NCBI GenBank assembly: GCA_903881565.1 | Contig: CAIRTR010000065.1 | Location: 1-45,094 of the forward strand | DNA length: 45,094 nt | DNA from: Oligoflexia bacterium | Lineage (GTDB): Bacteria > Bdellovibrionota > UBA1018 | Direction: 5' to 3' | Part shown: positions 1,310 to 16,158 of the stretch, piece by piece | Numbering within the stretch: the first letter of the stretch is position 1 | Layout of the letters: each line of letters begins with the position of its first letter | Position numbers and translations under genes: made by a program | The notes under the pieces: model-generated | The model's database searches: none | Seen by the model: the letters and a program-made list of their open reading frames with translations, nothing else | What the model was told of the DNA's origin: nothing

Positions 1310-1885
1310 TTAAGGCGGAGCACCGTCTGATTCAATCCTCATGATCCGGTAACCTTGAGCGAGAAGCGTTTTCATTGGAACTCCCGCAGCTTCGAAGAGA
1401 TTCTTGATAAGGTACCGACCCATGCCTCTGAAGTCCCGCCCGAAGTGAACGATTCGAGTAAACGCCAGATGATCCCAAAAGCCCCGTCCAGTTTCGTTCT
1501 TGTTTAGTGATGCGCCTTTTTTGGCGCCGGTGACGATAATGGCGATTCCACCCGCGAGCTCTCGCAGGAACCGCCTCCAGATGAGGCGAGATGGCACCTT
1601 GATGAGGAGATGAATGTGATTACCGACGTTTGCATAGCGATAAAGCCGCACGCCCCAGCGTTTAGCAAGTGCCTCCGTAAAGTCATGAATATGATCACAA
1701 TGCTTGGGATGAAGCATAGAACTTGAGCCGCGAGCCTGAGAGGATCGCAAAACAACGTGAAGTGCCTGCTTCGGATCAATGGGGCGCCTGATTTTGCGCT
1801 TGTTCTTCGTGTGCTCCCCGCCATGAGAGATGTCTCCCGTTTTCGAATTGAATCCAGGCAAAAAGGATTGAGCTTTGACTCGCAT
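1310..1885 (-). CDS. RAYT-like (IS200/Y1 family) transposase
   Basis: Contains the HUH nuclease signature in NVGNHIHLLIKVPSR, preceded by a conserved basic block KNKRKIRRPIDPKQALHVVLRS typical of REP-associated tyrosine transposases, and followed by a Tyr in GRYLIKNLFEAAG that fits the catalytic Y1 tyrosine. These enzymes nick single-stranded DNA at hairpins. I chose the ATG at 1885; a GTG at 1930 in the same frame would add 15 residues, and neither has a strong ribosome site. No second transposon gene (TnpB) or paired terminal hairpins are visible alongside, so it looks like a solitary, domesticated copy rather than a mobile insertion sequence. Confidence 0.8.
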   Translation of the reverse strand: MRVKAQSFLPGFNSKTGDISHGGEHTKNKRKIRRPIDPKQALHVVLRSSQARGSSSMLHPKHCDHIHDFTEALAKRWGVRLYRYANVGNHIHLLIKVPSRLIWRRFLRELAGGIAIIVTGAKKGASLNKNETGRGFWDHLAFTRIVHFGRDFRGMGRYLIKNLFEAAGVPMKTLLAQGYRIMRIESDGAPP

Positions 1886-2167
1886 TTTTTCTGATAGCGT
1901 AGGGGCAATGGGTTTGCAAGCAAAATTCACCCACGGCGGAGGTCCGGACCTGGTACATCATGGAGACTGAGAAGGGAGAACAGCCGTTTCACGTGATTTG
2001 TCAAAATGCCCACAGCGCTACAGTGAATGGCACGCTCCCGCGCTTCCCCTCCCGCGCTAACCGCCGCAAGCGATCGGAAACGAGCCTTTTTACAATTCAC
2101 AATCACACCACCTAAAGACGTAAATTACTAATATTACACCACAATCTGAAACATCTACCATTCAACT

Positions 2168-2189
2168 TATCATTCATGCTATCATTCAT
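2168..2189 (+). repeat. Direct repeat TATCATTCAT x2 at the yjjJ start
   Basis: The decamer TATCATTCAT occurs at 2168-2177 and 2180-2189, straddling the annotated ATG at 2176. With a second ATG at 2194 (residue 7), the repeat could mask the true start or be a protein-binding site. No Shine-Dalgarno sequence is evident before either ATG. Confidence 0.5.
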
Positions 2190-3528
2190 ATTGATGATCA
2201 AATCGTCCAAACAGCGTTTACTAGAACTCCTCCGCTCCGAAGGCCCTCAGAGTCCAGCGGTACTGATGGGGCGATTGAGCATCAGTCAACCCACCTTGTT
2301 TCGGTTAGCCAAAGCCCAACCCGAGAACATTGCCGCACTCGGCGCCAATCGAAATCGCAAACTCGCCGCACTTCGAAACGCTCGAGGGCTGACTTCAATC
2401 ACGCCTGTTTTTTTCATCTCCCCAGAAGGCGAAGCCGTCTCCGCTGGCAACCTTCTCGCCCTCTACCCTAGCTCGTTCGTTTTTCAGCCAAACTCATCGC
2501 CATCGAAGCCCCTGTTTTATCCAGGGCTACCCTTCTTTTTAGACGACATGCGACCCCAAGGCTTCATGGGGAGAACCTTTAGCCAAAAACATTCAGACTT
2601 GAGATTGCCTCCGCGAATATCAGACTGGAGCAATGACGACATTCTCGAGGCCCTTGCCTGCCGAGGCGAGGATCTAACAGGTAATCTCCTCATCGGAGCA
2701 GAATCTTTTGAACGCTACCAATCACTTCGACGCGGCAAGACCGAAGCAATCGATGGTACGCGGCCCGCAAAACAATATCTCATCCATGCACAAGCTGCCA
2801 TCGATGGACAGCCCGCCGGCTCATCTGCCGGAGGAGAACAGCCCAAGTTCGGTGCGACACTCAAAGACAAGAACGGCACCCTCAAAAAGGTTCTTGTGAA
2901 ATTCTCCCCCACCGGCGACACATTTTCTGCCTCCCGATGGCGCGATCTCCTCATCTGCGAATCACTCTCGCTTGAGCTATTGCGCGAAAACGGCATTGCA
3001 GCCGCAGAGAGCAGACTCATAGAAGCTGGGGGAAGAACATTTCTAGAAACCCTACGCTTTGATCGTGTAAGCGCACACGGACGAAAAGGCACAATCTCGC
3101 TCTCCGCGATTGAAAACGAATGGATTGGGCGAGGCGAGAACTGGTCCGTGTCTGCGCAAGCGTTAGCGCGTGACAAAAAAATATCAGCGGACGATCTTAG
3201 CACCATTCAGACCTTAGAGTGCTTCGGCCGATTAATCGCCAACACCGATCGTCACCCCGGCAACCTCTCCTTTTTCTGGCAGCCCGGAGAGAAGCAGGTC
3301 CAACTCGCCCCGATTTATGACATGCTCCCCATGCTCTATGCGCCTAGCAGTGGCGGTGAAGATACCCGGAAAAAGTTCAGCCTCCCCTCTTATGATCACA
3401 CCCTCCTAAACTCCTGGAAAGGGGCACTCAAACTGGCAATCCAGTACTGGACCCGAGTACACGAGGACTCAAGGATCTCGCCCGAATTCAGAATAATCGC
3501 AAAGCGGAACCTCTCGTTGCTGTCCTAA
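2176..3528 (+). CDS. yjjJ: HipA-family serine/threonine kinase-like protein, YjjJ type
   Basis: A 450-residue protein with an N-terminal helix-turn-helix-like region (about residues 10-50, SKQRLLELLRSEGPQSPAVL then SQPTLFRLAK) joined to a HipA kinase core. The core shows SAGGEQPK (217-224), the ATP-contacting Lys242 in VKFSP, LETLRFDR (290-297), the catalytic NTDRHPGN (Asp358, Asn363) and the metal-binding Asp382 in PIYDMLP. This fused HTH plus HipA layout is that of E. coli YjjJ. HipA toxins phosphorylate aminoacyl-tRNA synthetases such as GltX; whether YjjJ-type members do so is not settled. No separate hipB antitoxin gene lies beside it, so the built-in HTH may do the regulation. All key kinase residues are present. 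Confidence 0.85.
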   Translation: MLSFILMIKSSKQRLLELLRSEGPQSPAVLMGRLSISQPTLFRLAKAQPENIAALGANRNRKLAALRNARGLTSITPVFFISPEGEAVSAGNLLALYPSSFVFQPNSSPSKPLFYPGLPFFLDDMRPQGFMGRTFSQKHSDLRLPPRISDWSNDDILEALACRGEDLTGNLLIGAESFERYQSLRRGKTEAIDGTRPAKQYLIHAQAAIDGQPAGSSAGGEQPKFGATLKDKNGTLKKVLVKFSPTGDTFSASRWRDLLICESLSLELLRENGIAAAESRLIEAGGRTFLETLRFDRVSAHGRKGTISLSAIENEWIGRGENWSVSAQALARDKKISADDLSTIQTLECFGRLIANTDRHPGNLSFFWQPGEKQVQLAPIYDMLPMLYAPSSGGEDTRKKFSLPSYDHTLLNSWKGALKLAIQYWTRVHEDSRISPEFRIIAKRNLSLLS

Positions 3529-4178: not shown

Positions 4179-5237
4179 CTAGCGCCCCTTCAGACTCCAT
4201 CTCGCAGGGACACTCGCCCCTCGCGCGGCAAGCATTGAGATGAGTCGCCCAGGATCGTCCGTGATAATTCCGTCCACACCCCAATCGATCATTTTTGCGG
4301 TCATTTTTGCGTCAAATGCCGTGCCCAGCTTTTCAGGCCAGCTCCAAACAACGACCTTAAGCCCCAGGGAGTGCGCTTCTTTGAGTGACCCGAGCGTCAA
4401 CTCCGCATCTTCTGGCTCCCAAGCAAATCCACCCATTACCTTGACCATCTGCGGGATTGATCCGCCACTCTGAGCCAGGAGCGCGCCTCCCGTCCAAAGC
4501 GTCGCCAAGGCCGGATCTTGTGAATAAAAATCATCCCCACCCCCTTTTTCGTTATCGCGACTGGTAAGGTACGCGGTCTTGAGGTGTGAATCGAGTTTCT
4601 GAAGCGCCGTCAGACAGCGAAAATCGAAGGCTTGAACTTCCGTGCGACCGATGATTTTTTCTTCTTTTAAAACTCGGTAAACCGCGCTCGCAAATACGAC
4701 CGGATCCGCGCTAGATTCGGGGTGCGTGGGATCAGTTTTCATTTCAATCTGAAACCCGACACTGCCGTGAGTTTCGCGCTCCACAAAGCGCACGACTTCG
4801 CGCAAGGTCGGCATCCGCGTGCCATCCACCGGCAACTGGTCTGGGAAAAACTTCGCGTACGCGCTCTCCGGATTGAGTCGTCCGACATCAAACTGCTGCA
4901 ATTCTTTGAGGGTCAAATTCTTCACCGCATATTTGTTTTTTTCGATAAATTGGCCGTCGGCCTTGCGAACAAGCTCAGGCTTCAAAAGCGGGTCATGCGA
5001 AATCAATACTTCACCCTCTTTCGTCAACACCACATCCATATCAACGAAGTCGGTTCCGATCGCAAGCGCGGCTCGAAACCCGGGCATGGTATTTTCAGGC
5101 GCAAATGATCGGACGCCTCGGTGGGCATAGACTTGAAGATGTGGCGTGCCCGGAGAAGCGCCGAAAGCGCCAAAAGCGGAGCCCAAAAATACCACAAACA
5201 GAGACACGAAGTAGGCGAGGATTGTGATTTGTGACAT
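4179..5237 (-). CDS. Glycerophosphodiester phosphodiesterase (exported)
   Basis: Carries the full GDPD signature: AHRG with catalytic His, ENT with the metal-binding Glu, DFVDMDVVLTKEG and the second His in LISHDP. The enzyme hydrolyses glycerophosphodiesters to glycerol-3-phosphate plus an alcohol. The start at 5237 gives a hydrophobic N-terminus (ITILAYFVSLFVVFLGSAFG), a signal peptide or anchor, placing the enzyme in the periplasm as for GlpQ; a longer reading frame upstream would run into the divergent transporter gene. Mature length near 330 residues fits GlpQ-like enzymes. It is divergent from a GlpT-like transporter 46 bases away, so the pair likely makes and imports glycerol-3-phosphate from lipid debris. 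Confidence 0.9.
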   Translation of the reverse strand: MSQITILAYFVSLFVVFLGSAFGAFGASPGTPHLQVYAHRGVRSFAPENTMPGFRAALAIGTDFVDMDVVLTKEGEVLISHDPLLKPELVRKADGQFIEKNKYAVKNLTLKELQQFDVGRLNPESAYAKFFPDQLPVDGTRMPTLREVVRFVERETHGSVGFQIEMKTDPTHPESSADPVVFASAVYRVLKEEKIIGRTEVQAFDFRCLTALQKLDSHLKTAYLTSRDNEKGGGDDFYSQDPALATLWTGGALLAQSGGSIPQMVKVMGGFAWEPEDAELTLGSLKEAHSLGLKVVVWSWPEKLGTAFDAKMTAKMIDWGVDGIITDDPGRLISMLAARGASVPARWSLKGR

Positions 5238-5283: not shown

Positions 5284-6633
5284 ATGCCTAGCCCTGCAGC
5301 CATCCTACGCCTCACCCCAAATCCACAGCAGCTCAAACGCTTGGTTGCATGGCGAGTCTCCACCTTCTGGGTCATGCTCATCGGGTACATCGGCTATTAT
5401 CTGATTCGAGGCAACCTCCCCGTCGCGCTCCCGCTTTTGAGTCGCGAATTCGGCTACACGAATCTTGAGCTTGGAAAAATCCTGACCTTCTCGGAACTGG
5501 CCTACGCGCTAGGAAAACTGACCACCGGTCCCTACGCCGACACCCTTGGCGGCAAAAAAATATTCATGATGGGGATGATCGGTGGAATTGTATTTAATTT
5601 TCTTTTCCCGCTGCACCCGAGCCTTCTCTACTTTACCGTTGCCTGGTGCTTTGTGAGATTCTTTTTATCCATGGGCTGGGGCGGAATCATCAAAACCATC
5701 GGCGAGTGGTACGAGCCCGAACGCAACGGCACGATCATGGGGCTGATCAGCGTGAATTTCCAATTTGGCGGAGTATTGGCTTCTTTGTTTGGCGGCCTTC
5801 TCATTGGCTGGGGCGTGGGCTGGAAAGGCCTGTTTTTCTGGCCGGCGATTGTCGTAACGGGTTTCGCGGTACTCTCACAACTGCTCTCTAAAGCAAGTCC
5901 CGGCGATCTGATTCCCGACGTGGTTTTTGGGAAAAACGCAGGCACCAAAAAATCAGTGCTTTCGCTTGAGGCCGCTCATGGCGCGCGCAGCGCTCATGGC
6001 GGTGGCCTGGAGATCGCAAAGAAACTTTTCGAAGTCCCGCTCTTTCGGCAGGTCCTCGTGTTTAGCTTTTTCATTCATATTTTGCGCTCATTCTTTATGT
6101 TCTGGATTCCAAAATTCATGGTGGACCTGGGAATGGGCACGGTGAACGCAGCGTTTTCATCGGCCGTTTTTCCGCTCGCCGGGGCACTGGGTACGATTGG
6201 ATTAGGTTGGTACACGGATCGTTTTGCTAAAGACGGGGATCGCTCGGCCGCCATGTGGAAGATGCTTTTTGGCTCAGTTATTTCGTTGGCCATTATCGGA
6301 GTCCTGATCCCCTTTCATCTAAAGTTTCAGGTCGCCATCATTGTCCTGCTCGCTTTTTCGGGGTTCTTTATCTACGGCCCCTACTCGATGTCAGCCGGCT
6401 GCCTGAGCTTAGACATCGCAGGTCCCGAGGGCGCGGGGACGTGCACAGGCCTCATCGACGGAATCGGTTACATCGGCGGTGCCGTTGCCGCGTGGGGAAC
6501 AGGTGCGATCTCGGATGCGTTCGGATGGGGTGAAGTGTTTTTCGCCTTGTCGGGATTTTCACTGCTCACGGTCGCCTGGGTATTTCACATGAGCCGATGG
6601 GCTCAAAAGAAGTCTAGAATGGGAGCGTCATGA
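5284..6633 (+). CDS. OPA-family MFS transporter, GlpT-like (organophosphate:phosphate antiporter)
   Basis: A 449-residue protein with about 12 hydrophobic segments. The N-terminal GYYLIRGNLPVALPLLSREF and the YADTLGGKK loop match the organophosphate:phosphate antiporter group (GlpT, UhpT), as does the RFFLSMGWGGIIKTIGEWY helix. Inner-membrane uptake of glycerol-3-phosphate in exchange for phosphate is the likely role, supported by the divergent GDPD gene. I chose ATG 5284; a GTG at 5224 would overlap the GDPD start. The downstream gene overlaps its stop by four bases (ATGA), so it leads an operon of at least four genes. The exact substrate cannot be read from sequence. Confidence 0.85.
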   Translation: MPSPAAILRLTPNPQQLKRLVAWRVSTFWVMLIGYIGYYLIRGNLPVALPLLSREFGYTNLELGKILTFSELAYALGKLTTGPYADTLGGKKIFMMGMIGGIVFNFLFPLHPSLLYFTVAWCFVRFFLSMGWGGIIKTIGEWYEPERNGTIMGLISVNFQFGGVLASLFGGLLIGWGVGWKGLFFWPAIVVTGFAVLSQLLSKASPGDLIPDVVFGKNAGTKKSVLSLEAAHGARSAHGGGLEIAKKLFEVPLFRQVLVFSFFIHILRSFFMFWIPKFMVDLGMGTVNAAFSSAVFPLAGALGTIGLGWYTDRFAKDGDRSAAMWKMLFGSVISLAIIGVLIPFHLKFQVAIIVLLAFSGFFIYGPYSMSAGCLSLDIAGPEGAGTCTGLIDGIGYIGGAVAAWGTGAISDAFGWGEVFFALSGFSLLTVAWVFHMSRWAQKKSRMGAS

Positions 6634-7406
6634 AAATGAAATTTATTATGAAGAGTCTTTCGGCTGCAGCGTCGCTCACAGCTGCCTTGTTATTAATTAC
6701 GCAAGCAGCCCAGGCCGAAACTCCGCAGGTGGAACCAAGCCCTGCGCCAGAAGCCCCGGCAGCAGCCACGCCAGTCGTGCTCCGCTCTCAAAGGTGGGCA
6801 GGAGGCAGCGGCGGGTTAATGTTAGGTTATTCGCCCTTATTTAAGCCCAAACTTGCAACGGCTGCGCGGCTGAATTGCGGTAAATTTTCAAGTTTCGATG
6901 CAGGCCTAGAACTCAAAGACCATGTTTCGTTAACAGGCAGAATTTCCAGTGCTACGGTTCCCTCGCTTAAGGTCTATGATTCGAGCGCCTTTCAAACCAC
7001 TTATTATGCCAACGCGCCGGCATCCCTTTACGAACTCATGGTGTCGATCAACGCTCCTTTGAATGAACCTTATTCGAAGTTAGGGCCGGTACAGCTTTTT
7101 CTTCCGCTGCAGTTTGGCAGCTCCTATCTTACGATCACGGGGGGCGGCAGCAAGTATACGGCGATGGCACTCGAGGGCGCGCTGGGCTTAGGCGCTCGCG
7201 TTTACACCTGGAGCACGGTGAGGTTCGATATTTCGGGACTCTATCGGTTCGGATTGCCCTTGATCGGAATTACAAAAAGCGACTCCACGCTCGTCACGGT
7301 CCAGAATTCCATTGGTGAGAATCTCAAATCCAGTCTCGAAGGAATGGAGATGAGGGTCGGTGTCACATTCATGCTTCCGTCTTCCCATGAGGAGAAACAG
7401 CAATGA
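6630..7406 (+). CDS. Exported protein, probable outer-membrane beta-barrel
   Basis: A 258-residue protein with a signal peptide ending at AQA (about residue 29), then a Pro/Ala/Glu-rich linker (residues 31-50), then alternating amphipathic strands separated by Gly/Ser/Thr turns, for example GSSYLTITGGGSKYTAMALEG and RVYTWSTVRFDISGLYRFG. The last strand VGVTFMLP is followed by a short polar tail, so it does not end in a canonical C-terminal aromatic. GGGAG precedes the ATG, which overlaps the transporter stop. I do not recognise a family. A passive barrel or surface anchor for the following lipoprotein is plausible. Confidence 0.65.
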   Translation: MKMKFIMKSLSAAASLTAALLLITQAAQAETPQVEPSPAPEAPAAATPVVLRSQRWAGGSGGLMLGYSPLFKPKLATAARLNCGKFSSFDAGLELKDHVSLTGRISSATVPSLKVYDSSAFQTTYYANAPASLYELMVSINAPLNEPYSKLGPVQLFLPLQFGSSYLTITGGGSKYTAMALEGALGLGARVYTWSTVRFDISGLYRFGLPLIGITKSDSTLVTVQNSIGENLKSSLEGMEMRVGVTFMLPSSHEEKQQ

Positions 7407-8470
7407 GAACTTTAATACTCAGTCTCCTGGTTCTTTTCGCTTCCTGCTCCAACGATGCAACAAAAACGGCTACTGGAAAAACATTCGTAATTCGCGGAAA
7501 AGCGCTCACCGGCGCGCATCCTAAAACGCGAAAACCTGTCGCCGGAGGCTTTGTCGGACTCGTCAGTCCGGAGCCCAGCAAATGGATGGGCCTTAGTTTT
7601 GCCACCAACAGTGGCGTGCCCAATAAAACGGTGACCCAGGCCGATGGTAGTTTCACGTTCACCGTTGATATCAGCATTATCGTGACCACCTATCCGATCT
7701 TTTTGGCCGTCAGCGATTCGGCGCAAACGTACACGATGATCTCCGAAATCCCGGTCAATCTCGCCGTCGAAGACGCACAGGTGGATATGGACATCAACCC
7801 AACGACGAGTGTGGCTGGGCAAATGATCTGTCCAGGCGGGGTTTATCCTCCCAAAGGCAACGGGTATTGCTATAGCGATCCTCATAACGCCTCGACCACC
7901 AAAGACGCGATGGAGACGAGCATTGATAACCTGCTCGCAGGTGCGGACGTAGCCGTCGAGATGGCAACGCCCGGGGATTGGAAAACGTTCATTACCACTT
8001 TGCTAGGTGACGCCCCTACTTTTGCCGAACTCAAGGCGATACTGAACAAAGCGGGGTTGACCTCGACTGATTTAACTGCCACCGCCATTGATTCCGCACT
8101 GATCACGCTCCCCATTGTGACCGAACCCGTTTACGGGATCGACGACAATGACCCCACCCCGACAACGACCTCTGATAGTTCCAGTGGCGGATCCTGCTCC
8201 GGGGGCTGGATCGGATCCGAATCCTCTTGCGTCCCTTTGGGCGCGGGCGGAAGCTGCGTCTGCTCGGGAAGCAAAAGCACTTGCGTATCGAAGTCTGAGT
8301 ACGAGAGTGTGACCGGTCTGACGTTCCCCTCAGCCTGTGCACCTTCTGGGACCACGGGATGCATGAACGGAGAAAAGGGCACGCTCGTGAAACCCTGCTG
8401 CTCGGGATTATCATGTAAATTGTCTTCGGTATGTGGCGGAGGCAGTAACGTCGGAGGCATTTGCCAATAA
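7403..8470 (+). CDS. Cys-rich lipoprotein with carboxypeptidase-regulatory-like domain
   Basis: The N-terminus MRTLILSLLVLFASCSN has a lipobox (F-A-S-C), so the mature protein should be lipidated at Cys15. Residues about 28-110 (FVIRGKALTGA, GFVGLVSP, ADGSFTFTVDIS) resemble the beta-sandwich of carboxypeptidase regulatory-like/transthyretin domains. The last 100 residues hold 12 cysteines with Gly/Ser spacing, including a CC pair, like small disulfide-knotted extracellular modules. The ATG overlaps the previous stop by four bases. Function unknown; a surface adhesin or binding protein is the natural guess. Together with its barrel and diheme neighbours it forms a translationally coupled envelope module. 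Confidence 0.7.
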   Translation: MRTLILSLLVLFASCSNDATKTATGKTFVIRGKALTGAHPKTRKPVAGGFVGLVSPEPSKWMGLSFATNSGVPNKTVTQADGSFTFTVDISIIVTTYPIFLAVSDSAQTYTMISEIPVNLAVEDAQVDMDINPTTSVAGQMICPGGVYPPKGNGYCYSDPHNASTTKDAMETSIDNLLAGADVAVEMATPGDWKTFITTLLGDAPTFAELKAILNKAGLTSTDLTATAIDSALITLPIVTEPVYGIDDNDPTPTTTSDSSSGGSCSGGWIGSESSCVPLGAGGSCVCSGSKSTCVSKSEYESVTGLTFPSACAPSGTTGCMNGEKGTLVKPCCSGLSCKLSSVCGGGSNVGGICQ

Positions 8471-8473
8471 AAT

Positions 8474-9031
8474 ATGAAAAAACAAACTATTCTCATCTCA
8501 GCGGGGGTCGTGATCGGGGCCGTGCTTCTGGTATCAACCTTGAGCAATAAATTTATTGCCAGTGAAGTGGTGTTCAGCACGCGCCTCTATCCTAAGTTTC
8601 AAGCCAAAGCCTGCACCCAGTGCCATGACTTCTTTTTGCAAAAGCTTAACGGCCTTTCGTTCAATTCTCACATTGAACGTACCGCTGAAAAGTGCGTTGA
8701 ATGCCACAAGCAAGAGGTGACCGGCTTTGCCACGGCCGACGAATGGTTTGCGCAGCCGGGCCTTTACACCTCTGATATGAACGCACAGCAAACCTGCGAG
8801 ACGATCATGAATGGCATGCAGGCTCAGTTTAAACACAAAGACAAGCTGGCGCGCGATCTTGCCAAGCACTTGTTCGAAAGTCCGCGCGTCCTCTGGGGCA
8901 TTGCGGGCGCCACGCCCAACAGTGGGCGGTTACCTGAAAAAAAGATGGAACTGGGCCTCGTCCAAGGGGGAATGGAAGAATGGAAAGCCGAAGTCAACGC
9001 CTGGATTCAAGGTGGGATGAAGTGTCAGTGA
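8474..9031 (+). CDS. Diheme c-type cytochrome-like protein
   Basis: A 185-residue protein with an N-terminal hydrophobic anchor (residues 5-24) and two heme-attachment motifs, CTQCH and CVECH, about 29 residues apart. Extra cysteines occur in QQTCE and near the C-terminus (MKCQ). It would be exported and receive heme in the periplasm, with a role in electron transfer. It starts three bases after the lipoprotein stop and is probably the last gene of the operon. The C-terminal half (GNxGRLPEKKM-like region) does not resemble a family I know. The second half of the protein is helical and lacks further heme motifs. Confidence 0.75.
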   Translation: MKKQTILISAGVVIGAVLLVSTLSNKFIASEVVFSTRLYPKFQAKACTQCHDFFLQKLNGLSFNSHIERTAEKCVECHKQEVTGFATADEWFAQPGLYTSDMNAQQTCETIMNGMQAQFKHKDKLARDLAKHLFESPRVLWGIAGATPNSGRLPEKKMELGLVQGGMEEWKAEVNAWIQGGMKCQ

Positions 9032-9060: not shown

Positions 9061-9096
9061 TTCGGGTTTGTTCGGGTTTGTTCGGGTTTGTTCGGG
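9061..9096. repeat. Tandem decamer repeat TTCGGGTTTG
   Basis: Three exact copies of TTCGGGTTTG plus a fourth partial copy (TTCGGG) in the 3' region behind the diheme cytochrome gene. The unit has no dyad and there are no spacers, so it is a simple microsatellite-like array likely to vary in copy number between strains. Confidence 0.9.
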
Positions 9097-9872: not shown

Positions 9873-10262
9873 TTACTTTTTCGACCAAGCAGCTGCGAGT
9901 TGTTTGTCAAGAGTCACAAGCTCCAGATTCAGCGTAGCAGCTAGCCAGAAGTAGCTTGCATCGTAAATCGTGAGGCCATATTTTTCGGCGATCGCAACCA
10001 CGGAGCTAACGGGTACGTCGACGCGCTCAATGGCAGAATCACAGTAGATCTGATAGCATTCATCGAGTTGCTGTCGAAGCCGCGGGTGGTATTTTATTTT
10101 CTTGAGAAATACCGATCCGATTTCATAGTCGATCAAGGTCGGCGCAACCCAAGAGCGATTCCGCAACTTTCGTTCAAGAAGTTCTGCTTCCGGCTCTCTA
10201 AAAAAAATCGCGCTGACGGCGGAAGCATCCACCACAAGTTTAGCGTCTGTCTCTGTCTTCAC
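9873..10262 (-). CDS. vapC: PIN-domain ribonuclease toxin, VapC type
   Basis: A 129-residue PIN protein with the four acidic positions of the metal site: Asp12 in VVDASAV, Glu47 in LIDYEIGS, Asp101 in YDASYFWLA and Asp119 in LVTLDKQL. Such toxins cleave specific RNAs (often tRNA or rRNA) when released from their antitoxin. Length fits the family. Its start overlaps the 3' end of the upstream ribbon-helix-helix antitoxin gene by 23 bases, the standard antitoxin-first vapBC order. All active-site residues are intact, so it should be functional. The exact RNA target is not predictable. Confidence 0.9.
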   Translation of the reverse strand: MKTETDAKLVVDASAVSAIFFREPEAELLERKLRNRSWVAPTLIDYEIGSVFLKKIKYHPRLRQQLDECYQIYCDSAIERVDVPVSSVVAIAEKYGLTIYDASYFWLAATLNLELVTLDKQLAAAWSKK

Positions 10263-10476
10263 GGATTGCTCTTGTTGATTCAGCAGCAGTTGTCACTGCG
10301 ATTTTCCGAAGCCTCCGGATCGATTCATCTATAGACAAGGGGCGAGGCCGTTCAAGATTCTCTTCGAGAATGGTTAGCAACTCACCCTGAAGGGAACGGT
10401 GATTTTTTTCAGCTCTCGAGCGCAATTTTTCGACTAAAGCATCGGGGACGGCTTTGATGGACAGATTTACGGGCAT
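10240..10476 (-). CDS. vapB: Ribbon-helix-helix antitoxin of the VapBC pair (FitA/VapB-like)
   Basis: A 78-residue protein. NLSIKAVPDALVEKLRSRAEKNHRSLQGEL fits an Arc/FitA-type ribbon-helix-helix fold: a DNA-contacting strand (LSIKAVP) and two helices, then a C-terminal charged tail (ESIRRLRKIAVTTAAES) that would wrap the toxin. It would neutralise VapC and repress its own promoter. GGAG lies 7 bases before the ATG, and a reasonable sigma70 promoter is upstream (10497-10525). Gene order and overlap with vapC support the pair. Confidence 0.85.
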   Translation of the reverse strand: MPVNLSIKAVPDALVEKLRSRAEKNHRSLQGELLTILEENLERPRPLSIDESIRRLRKIAVTTAAESTRAIREDRDRR

Positions 10477-10998: not shown

Positions 10999-11376
10999 TC
11001 AGAGGAATCGTTTATAGTCGATCCCCAGCGCCTGGCCAATTCGAATGGCAAGCTTTTTCCCAATAGCGCGCTCTCCTTTTTCGATCTTCGAGACATCTGA
11101 TTGGCTAATTCCGATTTTCTCGGCCATCTGCTTTTGCGTGAGCCCGTATCGTAAACGGGCCCCATGGAAAGATATGGCCGGCCCTTTCACCGGATCTTGA
11201 AGATCAGGATAAAGCTCCTTGGCATCAACAAAGCTCTTGTCGCCAGAGCGGTCGTCTAGTCCTTTTAGCAGCGTCGCCACCGCACTCGCTGCGTCCTTTG
11301 GAACCAGATAGAGGGTACGCTTTTTTCCCTCGCTAATTTCGATCCTAATAAGGTGCGTCTTCGCGGCTACCGACAT
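10999..11376 (-). CDS. higA: XRE-family HTH antitoxin (HigA-like)
   Basis: A 125-residue protein with a C-terminal XRE helix-turn-helix (about residues 70-118): RLRYGLTQKQMAEKIGISQSDVSKIEKGERAIGKKLAIRIGQALG. The N-terminal half (residues 1-65) is a separate acidic region, likely the toxin-binding part. It follows the toxin gene with a 32-base overlap and has its own strong ribosome site, GGAGG, 5 bases before the ATG, so antitoxin can be made in excess. The toxin-first order is that of higBA. Family call firm, symbol by arrangement. Confidence 0.85.
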   Translation of the reverse strand: MSVAAKTHLIRIEISEGKKRTLYLVPKDAASAVATLLKGLDDRSGDKSFVDAKELYPDLQDPVKGPAISFHGARLRYGLTQKQMAEKIGISQSDVSKIEKGERAIGKKLAIRIGQALGIDYKRFL

Positions 11377-11632
11377 AAGTTACCTCCAAAATTCGAACTT
11401 CGTTATCAACCACTTCCCAAACAGCCGCATAGCTGTAATTCAAATGGCAATGAAAACGAGCATGAGTAAGCTTTGAGTAGTTCGGCCATTCCGGCTGTGC
11501 TGGGCCGTATTGAACAAGGTCACGAATAAGCGCGCCAAAAATAACCCTCACATTGAGAGGCATCTTCTCCGCCCTTTTCGCTGCCTTTTTATGAACTCGA
11601 ACCTTCCAATCCACATACTTACGATATATCAT
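11345..11632 (-). CDS. higB: RelE/HigB-type mRNA interferase toxin
   Basis: A 95-residue basic protein with the RelE/ParE-like pattern: N-terminal helices rich in Lys/Arg (VRVHKKAAKRAEKMPLNVR), a strand region (HARFHCHLNYSYAAVWEVVDNEVRILEVTYVGSRED) and His/Tyr/Arg residues that can serve general acid-base roles in ribosome-dependent mRNA cleavage. It directly precedes and overlaps the HTH antitoxin gene. A palindrome lies 24-38 bases upstream of its start. No Shine-Dalgarno site is obvious, so toxin translation may be weak by design. Confidence 0.8.
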   Translation of the reverse strand: MIYRKYVDWKVRVHKKAAKRAEKMPLNVRVIFGALIRDLVQYGPAQPEWPNYSKLTHARFHCHLNYSYAAVWEVVDNEVRILEVTYVGSREDAPY

Positions 11633-15264: not shown

Positions 15265-16158
15265 CTAATTTGTCTTCTCATTTGTTTGGACTTCAGCCGA
15301 AGGAACTGCAGAGACGGCGCGGGATTGTATCTCCAACTGACGCGCGTCGAAATAACTCGCAAGCGCGCGACGCTCCCGCTCCCCCAAAGTTCCCAAGCCC
15401 GTCTTGGCAACAATCGCGGGATGCTGAAAACCCGGAGAACTTTTGGAAACCACCTGTTCTGGCCCGGGTCCATTGCCCACAGAATGACAACTCATGCAAT
15501 TCTGCACAAAAATCTTCTCCCCCCGAACTGCGCCGGGATCGGAGCGTTTTTTCAAGAACCAAGGACTGTATTTCTCGCGATAACTGGTGAGCTCAAGAGC
15601 TGTAAGCTCAGAAACGAAGTAGGCGCCGACCGGAACCTCTTCTTTGAGAATTTGCGGCCTGGAGGTCCACGGCATCACCCCTAAAAGGCGCTCCCCGTTT
15701 CGCGCAACCAACACCGGATACTTCGTGACAAGAGAGCGAGGAATCAAGGCCCGATGCCCCAAGCGATCCGTCAACACCAGCAAATCCACCTGAGCACGTT
15801 GATCAGGTGTTACCCCTTCCAACGCCTTCTCCACCACTTGCGAGAGCAACACCCCTTCATAACGCACGAGCTTCCCGGTTTCGGGATCCCGCTCACTACT
15901 CGCTGCACGCTTAAGCCTAAAAAGTTCGGGAAAAGACCAGTCCCTCAAAACTTGAGACGCACCGCCTCCAAGCCACTGAATGGACAAGTGAGAGCTCGGC
16001 GCGGCCCCCTGCGAATTTGCATGACTTTCCAAAGAAGTTAATTCCATAGGAATTAACAAGAAAAGCCCAAAAACAAGAGGCGTAAAGCCCCGTAAAGAGC
16101 CCGATAAAAAGAACCGTGAAGTATTCAAAAAAGCGCGCCGAAACCCGAAATCTGCCAT
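15265..16158 (-). CDS. Exported c-type cytochrome with molybdopterin-oxidoreductase-like N-terminal domain
   Basis: A 297-residue protein with an N-terminal hydrophobic segment (about residues 20-40, FTPLVFGLFLLIPMELTSL) for export. The middle (about 60-190: VRYEGVLLSQVVEKALEGVTPDQRAQVDLLVLTDRLGHRALIPRSLVTKYPVLVAR) resembles the sulfite-oxidase/molybdopterin-binding fold, but I see no clear molybdenum-ligating Cys. The C-terminal part has one heme site CMSCH followed by a possible distal Met region, so it is a monoheme cytochrome c. It reads toward gltX with a 60-base gap. Role in periplasmic electron transfer is inferred. Confidence 0.7.
   Translation of the reverse strand: MADFGFRRAFLNTSRFFLSGSLRGFTPLVFGLFLLIPMELTSLESHANSQGAAPSSHLSIQWLGGGASQVLRDWSFPELFRLKRAASSERDPETGKLVRYEGVLLSQVVEKALEGVTPDQRAQVDLLVLTDRLGHRALIPRSLVTKYPVLVARNGERLLGVMPWTSRPQILKEEVPVGAYFVSELTALELTSYREKYSPWFLKKRSDPGAVRGEKIFVQNCMSCHSVGNGPGPEQVVSKSSPGFQHPAIVAKTGLGTLGERERRALASYFDARQLEIQSRAVSAVPSAEVQTNEKTN

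Follow-up and report, generated by a model that had tools for sequence, protein, structure and literature searches.

The stretch of DNA considered here, referred to as the window, comprises 45,094 nucleotides of a single contig (C65) in the 4.56-Mb draft genome (98.75% complete, 323 contigs; G000) of an Oligoflexia bacterium. Four genes on its forward strand, named A (transporter), B (barrel), C (lipoprotein) and D (cytochrome), run away from a gene for a secreted glycerophosphodiester phosphodiesterase (GDPD):

4179..5237, minus strand: secreted GDPD (Pfam GDPD, 1.1e-31; PDB 3l12, 8.4e-33; start set at 5237)
5284..6633, plus strand: A, GlpT/PgtP-like organophosphate MFS transporter (MFS_1, 7.1e-38)
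6630..7406, plus strand: B, predicted small outer-membrane beta-barrel (OMP_b-brl, 0.00017, below cut-off; structure model)
7403..8470, plus strand: C, putative lipoprotein with an N-terminal beta-rich domain, a helical middle and a 12-cysteine tail (sequence and orthologues)
8180..8470, plus strand: 12-cysteine tail of C (cysteine spacing; the tail alone has no Pfam match)
8474..9031, plus strand: D, predicted diheme c-type cytochrome (CXXCH at residues 47 and 74)

The structural outline given in a preliminary description of this DNA is borne out. All four frames are open and co-directional, and their junctions measure -4 bp (A/B), -4 bp (B/C) and +3 bp (C/D). The GDPD gene, whose product has a signal-peptide-like N-terminus, starts 46 bp from the ATG of A and is divergent from it; C contains 15 cysteines, the last 12 of which fall within residues 265-354, and D carries the two CXXCH sites ascribed to it. 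Given this spacing, A-B-C-D are likely to be carried on one transcript in the window's organism, and co-regulation of the four genes is possible. Tight junctions are, however, common throughout the window. Among 37 genes of the window listed by hand, with some starts perhaps placed too far upstream and with overlaps counted as tight, 12 of 25 same-strand pairs are separated by 4 bp or less, and 9 of 22 when the three junctions of A-D themselves are set aside. The packing thus supports an operon, not a dedicated system; with about half of the window's same-strand junctions equally tight, a system cannot be recognised by overlaps alone. Promoter-like sites between 4100 and 9300 number 3 (2.8 expected) and terminator-like sites 8 (6.2 expected), which is the level of chance, and internal promoters are therefore neither shown nor excluded by the sequence. 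A literature search covering GDPD/GlpT operons, porin-cytochrome systems, combinations of diheme cytochrome, lipoprotein and barrel, and MtrAB in Bdellovibrio and Bdellovibrionota found nothing on this gene set.

Several other features of the window were recorded. A perfect 10-bp tandem repeat of 3.6 copies (9061-9096) directly follows the cytochrome gene. Further upstream lie an IS200-like transposase (1310-1930, minus strand; Y1_Tnp, 7.9e-06), whose family has 11 Y1_Tnp matches in the same genome, and a HipA-family protein (2176-3528, plus strand) that passes the cut-off of the YjjJ equivalog (456.5 versus 401 bits). Downstream, on the minus strand, are two short overlapping gene pairs that by eye are toxin-antitoxin-like (9873-10476 and 10999-11632; PIN-like and RelE/HTH-like) and, adjoining a gltX-like gene, the gene for a protein of 297 aa that looks secreted and has one CXXCH, located towards its C-terminus (15265-16158).

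Transporter A and the secreted GDPD

A matches MFS_1 across the full profile (residues 31-403), indicating an MFS fold over its whole length, and residues 20-433 align with the structure of GlpT (PDB 1pw4, 9.1e-21). The closest curated models are those of PgtP/GlpT (TIGR00881, 2.8e-44; TIGR00712, 1.2e-32), both below cut-off. Since A falls short of every curated equivalog cut-off, namely those for GlpT (113.5 versus 632.55 bits), PgtP and UhpT, it is not filed as GlpT itself. The phosphate-binding arginines of E. coli GlpT are R45 and R269. Arg42 and Arg268 of A, both invariant in the orthologue from genome G024, align with arginines of GlpT in 1pw4 that we take to lie in TM1 and TM7.

A profile built from the window's A and the G024 orthologue (E<=1e-100) found A in 20 of the 368 genomes of the phylum, nearly all genomes compared in this analysis being drafts. 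Within flanks of at most 1.5 kb, some of them ended by contig edges, a GDPD homologue was found at 14 of these 20 loci, co-oriented in six, divergent in six and convergent in two; at the other six none was found. The GDPD of G247, a genome of another family, shares 65.7% identity with that of the window and is likewise divergent from A. B, C and D were not found in the flanks of the other 19 A loci (up to 1.5 kb, a span that would reveal B and part of C, not D, if arranged as in the window), nor in stretches of 17-20 kb around A in G015, G018, G247 and G024.

The recurrent partner of A is thus a GDPD, and the simplest function suggested by these homologies would be that of a scavenging pair for glycerophosphodiesters and glycerol-3-phosphate. 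We infer the biochemical steps as follows: the secreted GDPD would cleave glycerophosphodiesters outside the cytoplasm, and A would import the resulting glycerol-3-phosphate, or a phosphate ester like it, while exporting phosphate. The arrangement resembles that of the GlpT/UhpT/PgtP antiporters with GlpQ-type secreted GDPD in fold family, in the two aligned arginines and in the linkage to GDPD. It differs in that A scores far below the equivalog cut-offs and in that the GDPD gene is divergent in the window instead of lying in the same operon. A GlpT-like transporter with a secreted GDPD is already a known kind of pairing.

The predicted barrel and lipoprotein pair

C was found by a three-row profile in 3 of the 368 genomes of the phylum, and B by a single-sequence search in 3 of 58 relatives, these being the same three genomes (the window's own, G010 and G019). 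In all three, B and C form a bicistron with an identical ATGA overlap. Identity to the window's proteins is 67% (B) and 71% (C) in G010, and 39% and 44% in G019. The neighbours of the pair vary: in G010, the pair is preceded by a 53% identical homologue of the window's IS200-like transposase and followed by a gene that by eye is ATPase-like, and in G019 it adjoins a DUF2239 gene and one that by eye resembles small heat-shock genes.

The model of B, made from an alignment of three sequences, is predicted to contain about eight transmembrane strands (pLDDT 68.6), and the best small barrels retrieved with it by Foldseek are 3dzm and NspA (1p4t, TM(target) 0.68). With moderate confidence, B may be regarded as a small outer-membrane barrel like NspA and those of the OmpA type. 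In predicted size, strand number and fold it would resemble the small eight-stranded barrels (NspA, the OmpA N-domain, OmpW); it differs from them in matching no sequence family above cut-off, in the coupling of its gene to that of a lipoprotein, and in its rarity.

C has no match in Pfam, NCBIfam or PDB, and its AlphaFold model (pLDDT 37.6) is too poor for use. Profiles of B, C and D compared with solved structures gave no meaningful match. The lipobox consensus is loose; the candidate lipobox of C, as read from the sequence, is FASC in the window, LTSC in G010 and MLSC in G019. The 12 tail cysteines are spaced identically in G010, and the tail in G019 has eight cysteines with another spacing; the exact cysteine tail is therefore not conserved along with the pair. 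A mobile cysteine-rich tail shared with other proteins was considered and rejected: among 97 relatives, the tail alone matched only the lipoproteins of the window and G010, besides a weak match across stop codons in G007. A phage or plasmid origin of C was also set aside, there being no plasmid match and no relative in viral contigs.

B and C would be produced as a translationally coupled pair. B is predicted to form a small barrel inserted in the outer membrane. Disulfides may stabilise the tail of C, and C itself most likely resides close to B, either attached to the outer membrane or displayed through it. We infer from these features a surface or outer-membrane role. As judged by sequence comparison, the B-C pair is the only part of the cluster that belongs to no known family.

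The predicted diheme cytochrome and MtrAB-type conduits

D was found by a two-row profile in 5 of the 368 genomes. The four other orthologues are 50-64% identical to the window's protein and share both CXXCH motifs; His66, His132, Cys108 and Cys184 are also invariant, and the N-terminus of D reads as hydrophobic. Several models of the c7/c3 type match D, all below cut-off. With Paired_CXXCH_1 (cut-off 20.6 bits), the window's D scores 12.2 bits, and its relatives in G152 (22.3) and G133 (21.0) pass. Together with the two CXXCH motifs, this would place D near the paired-CXXCH/cytochrome c7 class, from which it departs in its own score below cut-off, in a long C-terminal half that is conserved and lacks heme motifs, and in the additional invariant Cys108 and Cys184. 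The hemes are probably bis-His, ligated through His66 and His132 besides the CXXCH histidines, and a disulfide between Cys108 and Cys184 is probable. D would be read as a diheme carrier of electrons that is either free in the periplasm or anchored to a membrane, electron transfer being the natural reading of its function. A magnetochrome identity (E 0.54, below cut-off) and a plasmid origin of D (no plasmid match) were both rejected.

Outside the window, D is found apart from B-C. In G010 it lies on another contig, with 21 kb of sequence upstream and about 380 bp left downstream before the contig ends, and follows a gene for a 172-aa protein adjoining a divergent two-component system (identified by eye, except for the kinase). 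G132, G133 and G152 carry D without B-C: after a response-regulator-like gene in G132, after response-regulator-like and kinase-like genes in G133 (all by eye), and with no close same-strand neighbour in G152. Two similar, secreted-looking tandem proteins with one CXXCH each near the N-terminus were observed in G133 (L034 1491-4400, plus strand). They have no Pfam match, and they occupy the slot held in G132 by an MtrAB-like pair.

That pair, in which a multiheme cytochrome accompanies an MtrB/PioB barrel, lies upstream of D in G132 at a distance of 4.3 kb. The MtrB/PioB family (PF11854) is above cut-off in 13 of the 368 genomes, including all three with B-C, three of the five with D and one of the 20 with A, the window's own. 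In the window's genome, the only PF11854 match is on another contig (C115; L046 6703-9877, minus strand), where the gene for a 300-aa protein with 10 CXXCH motifs overlaps that for the MtrB/PioB barrel; none of B, C and D is on that contig. One report places an mtrAB operon in magnetotactic Bdellovibrionota (PMC13200544). Two similar conduits, each with a 14-CXXCH protein of 550 aa encoded after an MtrB gene, were also noted in G010 (contigs C229 and C230; L047, L048).

The distribution of MtrB/PioB sets A apart from B, C and D, a weak lead drawn after the fact from three related genomes. The co-occurrence of B-C with MtrB/PioB is a weak lead of the same kind: seven of the 35 numbered genomes of the family (f1) carry MtrB/PioB, so that three out of three would arise by chance at 35/6545, uncorrected for kinship. 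B, C and D could on this basis assist an extracellular electron route of the MtrAB type, with D as the periplasmic electron carrier and B-C modifying or anchoring something at the outer membrane. The presence of MtrB/PioB in every B-C genome, the position of D in G132 and the 10-CXXCH protein beside MtrB in the window's genome are all consistent with this idea. We nevertheless regard it as very unlikely. B and C lack CXXCH, B does not match PF11854 and its model of about eight strands is far smaller than MtrB, and no decaheme protein or MtrB barrel is encoded among the window's genes. D is present in G133 and G152, which lack MtrB; G019 combines B-C with MtrB and lacks D; and in the window's genome B, C and D all lie away from the MtrAB contig. 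That B-C-D should be the family's own accessory set for extracellular electron transfer, acting together with an MtrAB conduit whose genes lie at another place in the genome, seems very unlikely.

Origin of the cluster

All four genes occur together in one of the 368 genomes, that of the window; G010 has B, C and D, G019 has B and C, and G024 has A. The preliminary description had taken the four genes for one envelope module, and had named absence of the order from relatives as the result that would refute this. When the A-B-C-D order was sought in relatives it was absent, B-C alone being conserved as a unit, and a single four-gene system is not supported. The description is borne out in part, in that the genes are arranged like an operon and every product is a membrane, envelope or secreted protein. 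The notion that the four proteins act jointly, for example in redox-gated uptake, draws on the tight spacing, the common strand and a number of terminator-like sites not above chance. The gene neighbourhoods led us to reject it: the co-presence in a single genome, the pairing of A with GDPD instead, and the equal tightness of so many other junctions in the window make a joint system very improbable. It is just as improbable that B, as a pore, or C, as a binding lipoprotein, aids phosphate-ester uptake by A and GDPD, as the direct coupling of A to B, seen in the window only, might suggest; this role too was rejected, because no orthologue of A accompanies B-C in G010 and G019 (best MFS match 26-28% identity) and 19 of the 20 A loci have neither B nor C within 1.5 kb.

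It thus appears probable that three units, each inherited independently, have come to lie in one lineage-specific run, namely GDPD with A, B with C, and D. What the comparisons establish directly is the order of the genes, their conservation and the separate occurrence of the units. Related bacteria carry these genes as three separate sets, and the cluster is therefore most likely a local assembly, not a new machine. The co-presence of B, C and D in G000 and G010 leaves room for a looser functional link among them. B-C is carried by three genomes only, which is a small sample, and its co-occurrence with MtrB merits a larger one. What the locus offers is B-C, an uncharacterised small pair, probably of the outer membrane, that one bacterial family carries and that is testable by itself.
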